A stretch of DNA of 7,132 nucleotides from assembly GCA_008501735.1 (NCBI GenBank), contig QQUF01000030.1:1-7132 (forward strand), in the 5' to 3' direction. The DNA is from Calditrichota bacterium (lineage in GTDB: Bacteria; CLD3). Below, in pieces: positions 649 through 7,132 of this stretch. The position numbers and the translations under genes were made by a program. Below the pieces are notes generated by a model. It saw only the letters and a program-made list of their open reading frames with translations. It searched no databases and had not been told where the DNA came from. Each line of letters begins with the position of its first letter. Position 1 is the first letter of the stretch.

Positions 649-1893
649 ATGATTGTCCAAAATTTTAATTTTAAATCACCTGATTACTCAAAAATCCTTT
701 CAAAACTCCAAGAATCAAAAGTGCAACTGAACTTCAAAAGAAATTCAATTTCTGTTAGCATAAATATTTTTACAGTTTTGACTTTTGACTTACGTGGTTT
801 TTTAATTTACGGAATTGTTGACGGAATCACTTTTAAACGTGGACTTGGCAACAGATTTTTGAAACTTTTCCGTGAGAATGGTGAAAAACTTCGCTTCGAC
901 CTTACAAAATCTGAAAAAAGCAACTTGCTAGAATTTGTTAAAGAAGTAACCAACTTTGCTTTCAAAAAGCCAACCGAGACCAATAACCACGAAAGTTTTA
1001 CAGAAATTGAGCTAAAAGAATTTGAACAAAAAATAATCTCAAAAAAGATTTCTGACTACGATAGTTTACAAGAAACTTACGACGCAATTTATTCACCGAT
1101 TATGATTTTGCCGCCCGACCAATACTTGGCTTTAGTTGTGCAAATGACAATCGGTTGCTCTTATAACAAGTGTAGTTTTTGTTCTTTTTACAAAGATGTG
1201 AAGTTTCAGCTCAAGCCTTTTGAGGAAGTTCGAAACCACACTTTGGCATTGAAAAATTTTCTTGGAAATTCGATTGGCTTGAGAAAATCAATTTTTCTCG
1301 GTGATGCAAATTCGCTTCTTGCTCCAACTCCTTACCTTGTGAAGTTGCTTGATTTCTTAAACAAAGAGTTCAAGTTTGACAAAAAAAAATTCAATGGAAT
1401 TTATGCCTTCATTGACAATTTTACACAAAACCTGAAAACGGTTGAAGACTACCAAGAATTGGAGAGAAGAAATTTCAAACGTGCTTACATTGGTTTTGAA
1501 ACAGGTTCGCAAAATGTTTTAAGACTTTTGAACAAACCTGGAACACCTCAAATTGCAAAAGATGTTGTGAACAGACTCAAAGAATCTGGAATCTCAGTTG
1601 GAGTAATTTTGATGACAGGTGTTGGCGGTAAAAAATATTTTTCCGAACACGTCGAAGAATCTGCAAAAGTCATTAACGAAATGAACCTTGACAAAAACGA
1701 CATCATTTATTTTTCAGAATTTGTAAGCTATGGAATTCAAAATTACTTGGATTTGTTAAAAGAAGAGAAAATAGAAGACAACTCTCCCGAAGATGCAAAA
1801 ATCCAAACGGAAGAAATTAAAAGCAGGCTTTTTCCAAATTGGCAAGAAAAACCTCGAATGACAAAGTATGAAATTAAAGAATTTATTTACTAA
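649..1893 (+). CDS. radical SAM protein (CX4CX2C cluster motif), substrate unknown
   Basis: This 414-residue protein is a predicted cytoplasmic radical SAM enzyme that would reductively cleave S-adenosylmethionine at a [4Fe-4S] cluster. The cluster cysteines are C170, C175 and C178 (GCSYNKCSFCSFYK), with four rather than three residues between the first two. That spacing is known from COG1032-like radical SAM proteins with a GCxWNxCxFC signature. Further barrel landmarks are IFLGDANSLL (215-224), YIGFETGSQNVLRLLNKPGTP (280-300, here spanning the late strands) and VGVILMTGVGG (317-327). Residues 1-150 precede the barrel and include a TFDLRG...DGITFKRGLGNRF segment, a leader region I associate with this subfamily but whose function I do not know. 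No B12-binding, SPASM or TRAM domain is visible, and the tail after residue 365 is short and charged. Start ATG 649 has no Shine-Dalgarno box. The 3' end overlaps the next ORF by 26 bp if that ORF starts at 1868. The reaction cannot be assigned from sequence alone. Confidence 0.85.
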   Translation: MIVQNFNFKSPDYSKILSKLQESKVQLNFKRNSISVSINIFTVLTFDLRGFLIYGIVDGITFKRGLGNRFLKLFRENGEKLRFDLTKSEKSNLLEFVKEVTNFAFKKPTETNNHESFTEIELKEFEQKIISKKISDYDSLQETYDAIYSPIMILPPDQYLALVVQMTIGCSYNKCSFCSFYKDVKFQLKPFEEVRNHTLALKNFLGNSIGLRKSIFLGDANSLLAPTPYLVKLLDFLNKEFKFDKKKFNGIYAFIDNFTQNLKTVEDYQELERRNFKRAYIGFETGSQNVLRLLNKPGTPQIAKDVVNRLKESGISVGVILMTGVGGKKYFSEHVEESAKVINEMNLDKNDIIYFSEFVSYGIQNYLDLLKEEKIEDNSPEDAKIQTEEIKSRLFPNWQEKPRMTKYEIKEFIY

Positions 1894-3376
1894 CGCAGAA
1901 TTAAGAAGACAGAAGTCAGGAGTCAGAAGTTGGTTTAGTGAAAGACTAAAGACTTTCGATAAAACTGCCAAAATAGAATTGCGGACTTTAGTCCGTTCTT
2001 ATAGCACAAACGGACTAAAGTCCGCAATCCCAATACTCAATTTGCTTGTCTGCTTTTCAAGTCTTTTGACGGCAAAAGAGAAACAGGAATTTGCGGTAAC
2101 TTCACAGAGACCTGTTGAGTTTGGATTTGAGCAAGAAACAATTTTAGCGACTTTTTCAGAAAAGGTTGACACATCGACAATTTCTAAAGAAACATTTTTT
2201 ATTCTAAAAGACTCACGAGAAATTGAAGGTAAAATTTCTTTTAGTCGAAATTTTCAAGCCGTTACTTTTTCGCCTACAGGAAAATTCTTGAAAGGTGCAA
2301 AAATTACTTGTATTCTCACAAATGGTATCAAATCTAAAAGTGGAAAATCGCTTCAACCTAAACTTTGGGAATTTGTAGTTCGTGGTAAAAAGAACCTTAT
2401 ACCTCAAGAAAACGAGCTTGTAATTTATTCTTCAGATTTAGATTTTGACGGAAATCTTGACATCGTTTTAGCTGACAACTCTGCTCTTTGGGAAAACATT
2501 TTGGTTTTTTGGGGATTTGGTGACGGTGCATTTTCTGTTCCACTTCGACTCTCTTTTCCGGGGAAAGCCTTCAAGATTTTAACTGAAAATCTTGACGAAA
2601 CGCCTTTTGCTGAAATCATCGTAACTGGTCGCGAGTTTGGAAAAGTTGCTGTTTTCAAAAACAACTTTGATTCTTTTGGCGAACCTCAAATTTTCAACGG
2701 AATTCGTTTTGCTTTACCAAACGCAGAAGATTTGGACAAAGATGGAGACAAAGATTTGATTTTGGTTTCTGAGGAATTTAGCCAAAACGTCAAAGTTCTT
2801 TTAAACGACGGTAAGGGAAATTTCAGTACAAATCCTCTTGAGTCAGAAAAAATTCTTTCGGCTTACGCAGGTGATTTGAACTCCGACGGAATTCCTGACC
2901 TTGCGGGAATCACTGATTCGGAAGAGAAATTCTTACAACTCAAAATCAGTTCTCCAAAAGGCTACAACTCAAGTAAGTTGCGAATTGGAAATTTTTCTAA
3001 AATTTCGGCAAATGACTTTAACAATGATGCAAAACCTGACCTTTTCCTTTTTAAAGAAAGTGGAGAATTTGAAGTCTTTTTAAATTCGGGAGACGGAAGC
3101 TTTCTTGAACAAGAAAATTATTTTTTACAAACCAAAATCGAAGAAGTCAGCGACTCTCCTAAAAGCAGTTACAAAATTTTAGATTCCTCTAAAAATGAAA
3201 AGATGAAGACAAAAATTGAGTTTTTAGAAGAGAAGGTAACAGTTGAAGTTTTCGATTTTAGTGGCAAGAAATTATCCTCAGAAATCTTTGAAGGGAAAAA
3301 AGGTGATTTGTTAAACTTTGAAAGAAAATTGAATTTCAAGCAAAGAGTTTTTCTAAAAATTATCGGTGGGAAGTAA
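1868..3376 (+). CDS. exported Big_5 + FG-GAP/VCBS repeat protein with type IX-like C-terminal tail; start uncertain
   Basis: The frame from ATG 1868 encodes 502 residues. A hydrophobic signal-peptide core sits unusually far in, at residues 53-69 (AIPILNLLVCFSSLLTA, cleavage probably after LTA). Residues 78-172 look like a Big_5 Ig-like domain (ATFSEKVDTSTIS...VTFSP...). Residues 186-420 hold five FG-GAP/VCBS-type blades spaced 47-51 residues. Four have calcium-loop motifs: DLDFDGNLD at 190, DLDKDGDKD at 288, DLNSDGIPD at 336 and DFNNDAKPD at 383. The one at 241 (NLDETPFAE) is degenerate. Residues 435-502 end in VEVFDFSGKKL...VFLKIIGGK, similar to a divergent type IX secretion sorting domain. 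The protein is probably a secreted or surface adhesin-like propeller; its ligand is unknown. Start: ATG 1868 lies inside the radical SAM gene, and residues 10-52 are encoded by repeats. TTG 1979 would give 465 residues and a normal 32-residue signal peptide. There is no in-frame ATG between 1868 and the signal core. Confidence 0.8.
   Translation: MKLKNLFTNAELRRQKSGVRSWFSERLKTFDKTAKIELRTLVRSYSTNGLKSAIPILNLLVCFSSLLTAKEKQEFAVTSQRPVEFGFEQETILATFSEKVDTSTISKETFFILKDSREIEGKISFSRNFQAVTFSPTGKFLKGAKITCILTNGIKSKSGKSLQPKLWEFVVRGKKNLIPQENELVIYSSDLDFDGNLDIVLADNSALWENILVFWGFGDGAFSVPLRLSFPGKAFKILTENLDETPFAEIIVTGREFGKVAVFKNNFDSFGEPQIFNGIRFALPNAEDLDKDGDKDLILVSEEFSQNVKVLLNDGKGNFSTNPLESEKILSAYAGDLNSDGIPDLAGITDSEEKFLQLKISSPKGYNSSKLRIGNFSKISANDFNNDAKPDLFLFKESGEFEVFLNSGDGSFLEQENYFLQTKIEEVSDSPKSSYKILDSSKNEKMKTKIEFLEEKVTVEVFDFSGKKLSSEIFEGKKGDLLNFERKLNFKQRVFLKIIGGK
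1904..1931 (+). repeat. heptamer tandem repeat, consensus AGAAGTC, about four copies
   Basis: Four imperfect 7-base units follow each other: AGAAGAC, AGAAGTC, AGGAGTC, AGAAGTT. A weaker fifth unit (AGAATTA) may precede them at 1897. The tract starts just after the radical SAM stop codon and resembles the short heptameric repeats that litter intergenic regions of many bacteria. Seven is not a multiple of three, so a gain or loss of one unit would change the reading frame between ATG 1868 and the signal peptide of the FG-GAP protein. Confidence 0.6.
1978..2028. repeat. perfect long palindrome, 20-bp arms with 11-bp loop, REP/MITE-like
   Basis: The left arm 1978-1997 (ATTGCGGACTTTAGTCCGTT) is the exact reverse complement of the right arm 2009-2028; the loop 1998-2008 is CTTATAGCACA. 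Each arm is itself nearly self-complementary (CGGACT-TT-AGTCCG), so the element can fold either as one long hairpin or as two small ones. It is more GC-rich than its surroundings. The style resembles dispersed REP-like palindromes mobilised by RAYT-type transposases in other bacteria; no transposase is in the window. No T-tract follows, so it is not a typical intrinsic terminator. It is read through in frame, encoding ELRTLVR from the left arm and NGLKSAI from the right arm of the FG-GAP protein's extended N-terminus. Confidence 0.9.
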
Positions 3377-5180: not shown

Positions 5181-7132
5181 ATGCGTAAAAATTTGTTTCT
5201 TCTGGGAATTATAGGAAGCATTCTTTTAGGAAATTCACTTTCTGCTCAGAGTTTAAAAACTGATACAAAACAAAAAAAAGAGGTTGTTCATCGAGTCAAA
5301 AGTTTTAAGATTCTTGAACACACCAAAAATAAAATGAGAGTTGAAGTTTTAAGTCCAAAACCTGAATTTGAGATTGTTACAGAAAATGGAAAAGAATACT
5401 TAAAATTTAAGAAAATCGAAGGTTTGAAACAGGAACTCGGAACTCCTGAAATTCCTCAAATTTCTTACACTTTGAACATTCCTACCGAAAATCTTTCAGT
5501 TCGTGTTTTGAGCAAGGAGACAGAAAGTATTCGTCTTGAGAAAAAGATTAAACCAATTTTCCAAGACATTCCGAATTACGGAGTCGAAATTGATGCAACA
5601 CGAGAATCAGAGATTAGGAAAATCGAAGAGCAAAATGCAAAACAAAGTTACTCTTTTGGAAAAACTTACCCTTCACAACTTGCGGAAATTCTTCCAAGTG
5701 GCTCTTTTAGAGGAAATGAATTAGTTGCATTAAAAATTAATCCTTACGTTTACACACCTTCTCAAAATGTTTTGGCTTACCACTCAAAAATGATTTTGGA
5801 AATCACTTTCTCAGAAAACCCAAACTCAACGAAAAGTGTTGTTAACAGAAACCCAAGCCTTTCCGAACTTGAAGTTCTTTCAAAAACCGTTGAAAATTTC
5901 CAAGAAGCAAGAGCTTCAAATTTTTCAGGTGGTAAGAAGAACAAAAACTCAAACTCACTTTCAGCTTCCAATAATTTTGACACAACAGAGAAAAAAGCAA
6001 AAGTTGTCATTGACGAAGACGGAATTTATAGAGTTACGCTTCTTGACTTGGAAAGAGTCAACAATTTAAGTTTGATAAATTTTGACCCAAGGTACTTGAA
6101 AGTCTTCAAAGGCGAGGAAGAAATTCCGATTTACTTTAAAGGTGAAGATGACGGAAAATTTGATGAAGCAGATTACTTTGAATTCTGGGGTGAAAGACGA
6201 GTTAAAACTTATTTCAACAAAGTTGACTCGCCAGATATGTACCAAGACCCTTACTTACCTGAAAATTATTACTACTTAAGTTGGGAAAAAGACAAACTCG
6301 GACTCAGACTTGTTGATGAAAATGTTGCACCAATTATTGTGGACGACCCAAGAATTGGCGATGATGTTTACTCTTCGGATTATTATGACGAAAAAATTCA
6401 CTATGAGGAAGATAGAATTTTTAGTCGCTTAGGTTACATAAACCATAACACAGTTTTAGGTGCTTCGCAAAGAGACCATTGGTTTTGGAGAGAATCAAGA
6501 GCATTCACGACAGAAGTGATTGAAATTGATTTACCTGGACTTCACGGAGATGGAAGTGCTTCGGCAAAATTTACAATGGCTCTGCACGGAAGAACAAACA
6601 CTCCTCACCACGCTACTATTTCGATAAACAACCAACAAGCATTTAACACAACTTGGTCTGGTCAATCTTTACAAATGTTATACCCAAATCCAAACGGAAC
6701 AAATGATATACCTCAGTCTTTACTTCACCAAGGTATCAATAATGTTACTTTCCAAATGGACGGTTCTACAAGTGCAGGTGAAAATGATGTAATTCTTATT
6801 AATTGGATTGATGCAGAATATAAAAGAGAATTTATTGCTGACAATGACCAAATTATTTTCAGGAAACCTGTTGAAGACCTTTTTGGTGTTCCTTTTGAAT
6901 TTGGTGTTTGGGAATTTAATGTTAAAGGTTTCAAGAGTAACAACATAATTGCTTTTAAAAAAGGTATCAGTCGATTAAATGGTGCAGTTATTGGGACTTT
7001 CACTGACCCTGAAACTAAAGAGAAATCTTTTAGATTCAGAATGCAAGATAGAATTTTAAGTAATGAAGTTGAATATATTTTAATTAGTGAAAGTCAAGTT
7101 AAGACACCAAAAAGAATCGAATTAAATACTGC
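5181..7132 (+). CDS. C25 (gingipain/PorU-like) cysteine peptidase precursor, N-terminal 650 residues; cut by window edge
   Basis: The frame runs from ATG 5181 to the right edge without a stop: 650 full codons plus two bases. Residues 1-22 are a signal peptide (MRKNLF..., cleavage SLSA|Q). Residues about 85-210 match the C25 propeptide pattern: a GTPEIP...NIPTE entry, then YPSQL...GSFRGNELVALKINPY with VYTPSQNVLAY. Residues 245-270 are a Ser/Asn/Lys-rich linker. Residues 273-340 (VVIDEDGIYRVTLLDL, DPRYLKVFKGEEEIPIYF, DGKFDEADYFEFWGE) and the beta-sandwich at 455-550 (KFTMALHG...HHATISINNQ...LINWIDAEYKRE) are modules usually found before the catalytic domain in C25 and PorU-like proteins. The last residues (EYILISESQVKTPKRIEL) look like the first strand and helix of that domain, so the catalytic His and Cys lie beyond the window. 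It could be the type IX sortase PorU or a secreted gingipain-like protease. The start has only A/T-rich leader sequence. Confidence 0.8.
   Translation, partial: MRKNLFLLGIIGSILLGNSLSAQSLKTDTKQKKEVVHRVKSFKILEHTKNKMRVEVLSPKPEFEIVTENGKEYLKFKKIEGLKQELGTPEIPQISYTLNIPTENLSVRVLSKETESIRLEKKIKPIFQDIPNYGVEIDATRESEIRKIEEQNAKQSYSFGKTYPSQLAEILPSGSFRGNELVALKINPYVYTPSQNVLAYHSKMILEITFSENPNSTKSVVNRNPSLSELEVLSKTVENFQEARASNFSGGKKNKNSNSLSASNNFDTTEKKAKVVIDEDGIYRVTLLDLERVNNLSLINFDPRYLKVFKGEEEIPIYFKGEDDGKFDEADYFEFWGERRVKTYFNKVDSPDMYQDPYLPENYYYLSWEKDKLGLRLVDENVAPIIVDDPRIGDDVYSSDYYDEKIHYEEDRIFSRLGYINHNTVLGASQRDHWFWRESRAFTTEVIEIDLPGLHGDGSASAKFTMALHGRTNTPHHATISINNQQAFNTTWSGQSLQMLYPNPNGTNDIPQSLLHQGINNVTFQMDGSTSAGENDVILINWIDAEYKREFIADNDQIIFRKPVEDLFGVPFEFGVWEFNVKGFKSNNIIAFKKGISRLNGAVIGTFTDPETKEKSFRFRMQDRILSNEVEYILISESQVKTPKRIELNT

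Follow-up and report, generated by a model that had tools for sequence, protein, structure and literature searches.

In-frame copies of a short dispersed palindrome ahead of signal-peptide-like cores in a Calditrichota genome

Contig QQUF01000030.1 of a Calditrichota bacterium, analysed here over its whole 7,132 nucleotides (the window), carries a gene for an FG-GAP protein whose reading frame runs through a perfect palindrome just ahead of the predicted signal-peptide core. This arrangement raises the question of what the palindrome is and how it came to be read as part of an export signal. The evidence given below makes it probable that a non-autonomous mobile element resembling REPINs, the doublets of repetitive extragenic palindromes (REP), was captured in the n-region of the Sec signal of the FG-GAP protein, that it is read through from ATG 1868, and that the same kind of capture recurs in at least five other genes.

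The palindrome belongs to a dispersed repeat family

Analysis of the window indicated that the arms of the palindrome (1978-2028) are 20 nt each, 100% complementary and separated by an 11-nt loop, and that none of the other inverted repeats listed in the window is perfect over a comparable length. The predicted RNA hairpin has an energy of -32.3 kcal/mol and the surrounding 231-nt region folds with z = -4.2 relative to shuffles. The palindrome is included in the frame open from ATG 1868 to 3376, and the next in-frame ATG is found about 391 codons past it; the statement in a preliminary description of this DNA that no ATG lies between palindrome and hydrophobic core is therefore correct. Exact 20-bp arms lying in frame, and basic residues encoded by the palindrome directly abutting the core, both reported in that description, were likewise found in the sequence and its translation. 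The length of 51 bp given there holds for the palindrome itself, but the conserved element is slightly longer (approximately 1976-2030, GGATTG...CAATCC) and each arm is in turn self-palindromic (CGGACTTTAGTCCG).

The family unit is about 55 bp and consists of GGATTGCSGACTTTAGTCSGTTT, a variable loop and then the inverse. A search of the bacterium's own genome (4.14 Mb, 59 contigs) with a 101-nt query from the window returned 31 matches, and a half-site pattern matched 53 times against 0 for a reversed-pattern control, so that the palindrome cannot be attributed to chance. A covariance model built on 24 aligned copies found 29 places at E < 1e-3 in this genome, while no match better than E 0.1 was obtained in eight relatives of the same class. 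The genome contains approximately 36 elements once half copies are counted, most of them intergenic. The proposal that the arms are REP-like DNA with further genomic copies was thus upheld, and the palindrome was not unique. Viral contigs gave one half-site match of 20 nt without an inverted partner, judged to be chance, and a literature search for the element sequence gave only a core shared with ISDra2 plus unrelated primers and sites.

Alignment of the copies revealed which of the two possible pairings has been maintained. For the pairing internal to the arms, 7 of 12 pairs were changed on both sides, a value reached in 0/500 shuffles; for the long hairpin formed between the arms the figure was 3 of 14 pairs, as high in 284/500 shuffles. 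In four copies the two arms differ from each other and each arm is still self-complementary. Since compensation is greater within than between the arms and mixed-arm copies occur, the conserved structure is a pair of small inverted hairpins, and the element is an inverted doublet with REPIN architecture. One copy (G000:C44:198761-199114; L018:1564-1918) is interrupted by a segment of about 315 bp bounded by inverted repeats of another kind (AAGTAGTCGAGCAGAATTGTTTGAC...), and at another locus (L010) the palindrome lies inside a similar element, so the two elements nest in each other.

REPINs are REP doublets mobilised by RAYTs (Bertels and Rainey 2011, PMC3116915; BMC Genomics 2013, PMC3733652). 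Like them, the element consists of two small inverted hairpins around a variable spacer, is mostly extragenic, occurs also as half copies and falls into subfamilies with compensatory stem changes, and RAYT-like genes are present in the genome. Unlike REPINs, its conserved flank is GGATTG with no GTAG/CGTC tag (tags described in PMC3733652), it has only about 36 copies and it flanks no RAYT gene; because the tag and such a gene are absent, the designation REP refers to architecture, and membership is not established. The right-end hairpin of the IS200/IS605 element ISDra2 (PMC2806898) has the same core, GACTTTAGTC, with TTTA at the tip, but no canonical IS200 tnpA was found in the genome.

The preliminary description had pointed to a RAYT/Y1-type transposase. 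Five Y1 genes matched NF047646 below its cut-off (the best four at 58-73 bits against 80); PF01797 matches in the genome scored just 26.8-29 bits and resemble RAYTs. No copy of the element was found within 1.5 kb of the two RAYT-like genes inspected, and the other three lie far from all copies, so RAYT-like genes exist in the genome but none is flanked by the element. The inverted repeats around the two inspected genes are unrelated to the element. The element may have been spread by a Y1/RAYT-type transposase.

The FG-GAP gene and its orthologue

A relative of the same family (G001, JADZEA010000076.1) carries the same three genes in the same order, radical SAM, FG-GAP and DHPS; a search for further close orthologues in named genomes turned up only this relative. 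Its FG-GAP orthologue, 53% identical, lacks the insert and has an ordinary signal peptide (MKLKSLFIKTFF...), with an N-terminus (MKLKSLFIKTFFALIFGFFSQVLLAQEF) whose ATG overlaps the radical-SAM gene. The window gene retains the matching start (ATG 1868, MKLKNLFT) and has about 45 extra codons ahead of the core, made up of a dispersed minisatellite and the palindrome. The expectation that orthologues would lack the insert and start at an ATG that leads into an ordinary signal peptide was therefore borne out in this relative, and an N-terminal extension conserved in orthologues was not found.

Several observations concern this insert. Joining of the flanks gives MKLKNLFTNAILNLLVCFSSLLTAKEKQ under several boundary choices, and when rejoined, for example, as MKLKNLFTNAILNLLVCFSSLLTA, they yield a normal-looking signal peptide with the radical-SAM stop kept. 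The coding score per codon is -0.04 for the insert, which is without coding signature, against +0.25 for the mature part, and the reading frame as a whole is open over 502 codons. About 4% of shuffled inserts are open in a given frame, and the one-third probability that phase is kept comes on top of this. Because only one orthologue, at 53% identity, is close enough to compare, the limits of the insert are approximate and it may have arisen in one or more events.

The preliminary description had proposed that the insertion creates or replaces a signal-peptide start. Instead, ATG 1868 (MKLKNLFT) matches the orthologue's MKLKSLFI and the insert lies inside the n-region, which it lengthens; from this comparison the native start was apparently displaced, not created, by the insert. 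The in-frame ATG 1868, overlapping the upstream gene, had been missed, while a start within the repeat, as that description envisaged, is still represented by TTG 1979 in the palindrome as a possible alternative. Of the features of a Sec signal (a basic n-region, a hydrophobic core and a small residue ahead of the cleavage point), the core and the basic residues were recognised by sequence in the leader, and the FG-GAP product is a putative exported protein.

At four other loci (G000:C26:8771, C26:11731, C48:158575 and C50:49233), as in the window, the minisatellite component (AGAAGTCAGGAGTCAGAAGTT) and a palindrome copy are no more than about 100 bp apart, which suggests shared insertion hot spots or joint movement. 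The minisatellite alone was considered as an inhabitant of signal peptides and rejected, the other copies examined not being fused to exported genes. Coordinates are collected in Table 1. The last open reading frame of the window (5181-7130) has a Propeptide_C25 match and looks like PorU of type IX secretion.

Table 1. Features of the window around the palindrome
Feature	Position	Strand	Basis and remarks
FG-GAP / Big_5 exported protein gene	1868..3376	+	PF13517 6.7e-22, PF13205 2.2e-8; orthologue 53% identical; repeat-derived N-terminal segment at about residues 10-54; export predicted
Probable native start codon of the FG-GAP gene	1868..1870	+	Overlaps radical-SAM gene end by 26 nt; orthologue start MKLKSLFI at same overlap
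Signal-peptide hydrophobic core and probable cleavage region (ILNLLVCFSSLLTA-KEK)	2032..2076	+	Hydropathy; position agrees with orthologue core
Upstream radical-SAM gene	649..1893	+	PF04055 8.9e-15; same neighbour in G001; insert sits just past its stop codon
Dispersed minisatellite-type repeat (AGAATTAAGAAGACAGAAGTCAGGAGTCAGAAGTT...), read as ELRRQKSGVRSW	1897..1940	+	Component of the same insert; also at about ten further genomic sites
Palindromic mobile element, REPIN-like inverted doublet	1976..2030	.	Unit GGATTG...CAATCC; aligned with 23 other copies; covariance model match 1973-2033, E 1.2e-15
Left arm, own hairpin CGGACT-TT-AGTCCG	1978..1997	.	In-frame TTG 1979-1981, possible alternative start
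Right arm, inverted copy	2009..2028	.	Translated NGLKSAI, immediately ahead of the hydrophobic core

In-frame copies recur in other genes

The 36 elements were examined for copies that continue into a coding frame with no ATG in between. Besides the window, six other fused genes were found, five of them clear: an OstA/LptA-like gene (MRREEVRRQKSGDRRTGLRTLVCPEVKKRLKSVILQILFLFTVHCSLFTVHCSAQ), a TolB-like propeller gene (MVNNLINFLTNRLKSAILLFVIVHCSLFVVNAQ), a multihaem cytochrome (...CLKRTKVRNPVFSFQILLCLILFPCLAQA), a sensor histidine kinase (...SKRTKVRNPILVLFIFLLCNNLFAQ) and, fused to a degenerate copy, a PorZ-like propeller protein (MQKIMHRVADFNRFLVLKKVKVGNFQSLIFLAFLFLLPISLFSQ). In all five a hydrophobic core follows the copy directly or a few residues later. 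The pattern of in-frame capture recurs across six genes of this genome, and the preliminary view of the window as a single unusual case was not sustained, at least five more genes showing the same arrangement. The sixth candidate, a half copy (G000:C57:109167; L071:1465-1488), was set aside since translation could begin at a TTG downstream of the element; it lies in frame 24 codons ahead of the signal-peptide core of a large gene without a Pfam match. The PorZ-like gene and the PorU-type reading frame of the window together suggest the presence of a type IX secretion system in this bacterium.

The OstA-like and TolB-like genes have an ATG upstream of the element that overlaps the upstream stop codon, as would be expected of a native coupled start. 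The OstA-like orthologue in G001, and the TolB-like and cytochrome orthologues in relatives of the class, start at an ATG followed by an ordinary signal peptide, without the palindrome; no orthologue covering the N-terminus was found for the kinase. The TolB-like orthologue of G001 (G001:C196) has an unusually long n-region of its own, MIIKTIKFRLFHWFLKDCFSFKGDFSICKSSLFSVLF, also without the palindrome. In the OstA/LptA-like gene (G000:C26:7555-8814, minus strand; L011:353-1615) the core itself, FTVHCSLFTVHCS, is read from tandem copies of the 7-bp sequence TTCACTG, so that almost the whole signal peptide is repeat DNA, nearly all of it built from three repeat kinds. The TTCACTG tandem pattern occurs at 9 positions in the same genome; among the class relatives it was found in a single one, at one position.

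Signal-peptide-like or membrane-like starts were present in 6/6 fused genes against 7/22 ATG-started genes following a copy (p = 0.005, cut-offs 2.0 and 2.1). With the set-aside case included the count is 7/7 (p = 0.002 at the same cut-offs), and over cut-offs of 1.8-2.3 the p-value for all seven ranges from 0.002 to 0.05, depending on the cut-off. In the stretches inspected, 22% of 68 genes have a signal-peptide-like or membrane-like start. Enrichment of signal peptides among the fused genes is likely and not proven, given the small samples and the use of hydropathy as criterion.

Explanations and meaning

The following course of events is probable in our view. The element would spread as DNA and settle chiefly between genes; where the genes of an operon overlap there would be little intergenic space, and an insertion past the upstream stop would enter the first codons of the next gene. 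The palindrome and the second dispersed repeat would have landed in this way in the FG-GAP n-region, just past the radical-SAM stop. Translation from ATG 1868 can run through the insert because this is a multiple of three without a stop in frame, and the insert would provide a long basic n-region and leave the hydrophobic core unchanged. Two of the three frames at the reading end of the element are open and both are basic (KRTKVRNP and NGLKSAI; net +2 to +4). The n-regions of Sec signals need mainly positive charge and are removed after export, and for this reason they tolerate insertions; in a cytosolic protein the same insertion would become a permanent extension, while in an exported protein it would fall in the removable n-region. 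The same capture would have taken place independently in at least five other exported-protein genes. Tolerance, together with purifying selection for the frame, would suffice to explain the pattern, and we infer that the copies persist through tolerance and not through benefit.

A number of observations weigh against this reading. Signal-peptide-like starts were judged by hydropathy and orthologue position, and at a cut-off of 2.2 the count drops to 6/7 (p = 0.019), the OstA-like core falling just short (2.14). The FG-GAP comparison involves a single comparable orthologue of only 53% identity, the cytochrome and the kinase have TTG as their sole upstream starts, and no transposase is linked to the element. 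A hairpin of -32 kcal/mol near the start might hinder translation, and the genome is a draft assembly with the window as a single 7-kb contig.

The palindrome might itself supply the start, at TTG 1979 in the left arm (MRTLVRSYSTNGLKSAIPILNLLVCFSSLLTA), the open frame upstream being chance. The leader would then be of ordinary length, and the 87 nt upstream of the TTG are open in the given frame in 11% of shuffles, so that chance is possible; moreover the arm TTG is in frame in 3/3 full copies fused that way (window, OstA-like and cytochrome), a weak point because an open first arm would have its TTG in frame in half of all cases anyway. Set against this, TTG 1979 is buried in a 20-bp stem of about -32 kcal/mol, ATG 1868 corresponds to the orthologue's start, and the element of the OstA-like and TolB-like genes is preceded by an ATG that overlaps the stop codon of the gene before. 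We consider a start in the arm unlikely, and translation from ATG 1868 is preferred over it, not settled. Selection might favour the insertions if the hairpin or the basic leader tuned expression or export of envelope proteins, and all six proteins are by sequence exported envelope or secreted proteins with an always basic contribution (+2 to +4). Such an adaptive role is quite unlikely, since tolerance alone predicts the same bias, and the element is confined to one genome, which offers no comparison across species.

The approximately 45 extra residues before the core relative to the orthologue, and the lack of a codon signature in the insert, would also fit a decaying pseudogene whose signal peptide was destroyed by the insertion, leaving the product unexported. 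This is very unlikely, since the 502-codon frame has been preserved by the insert (4% of shuffles times one third for phase), the mature part keeps its coding signal and domains, and the arrangement is open in five other genes, including that for the LptA/OstA-like envelope protein. A repeat-driven misjoin could have placed the palindrome before the gene in a draft genome of 59 contigs, where the element is repeated and the window is a whole 7-kb contig; such an artefact is highly improbable, because gene order through the site is identical to that of G001, a 55-bp element can be spanned by ordinary reads and six sites have the same in-frame arrangement.

If capture is accepted as the better account, it can be set beside known cases. 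REPs inside genes have been described (PMC3733652). Rickettsia palindromic elements (RPE; Ogata 2000, reviewed in PMC2229807 and PMC10969869) are reported to lie in frame and to be translated within genes for conserved proteins. Like them, our element is a palindromic repeat within the open frame of a conserved gene and absent from the orthologue (FG-GAP, OstA-like, TolB-like and cytochrome); unlike RPEs, which are about 105-150 bp and are reported from many unrelated genes including metabolic ones, the element of the window is about 55 bp and every in-frame case lies in a signal-peptide n-region. In Yersinia, the RU-2/YPAL element, a 168-bp miniature inverted-repeat transposable element (MITE), supplies residues 1-30 of the putative protein YPO1552 and forms part of its predicted signal peptide, while homologues in other genera have unrelated signal sequences (Delihas 2007, PMC2759123). 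That case concerns one element in one putative protein, whereas here a much shorter element is found in at least six genes, in the n-region before the host core. In-frame palindromes and one MITE-derived signal peptide, as proposed in Yersinia, are therefore known, and in the open-access literature searched no report was found of one short element repeatedly captured in signal-peptide n-regions; such recurrent capture seems to be new.

A wider interpretation, to which we give an even chance, is that n-regions are a safe harbour, the palindrome repeatedly entering the junction between start and core, where it would serve as a portable basic n-region and remodel the export signals of envelope proteins. 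Six or more captures of one short element, all at an equivalent functional position, amount to a natural replicate experiment, which would show where bacterial genes tolerate mobile DNA and would give a route for the turnover of export signals. It also carries a warning that gene callers may misplace starts where repeats sit inside signal peptides.
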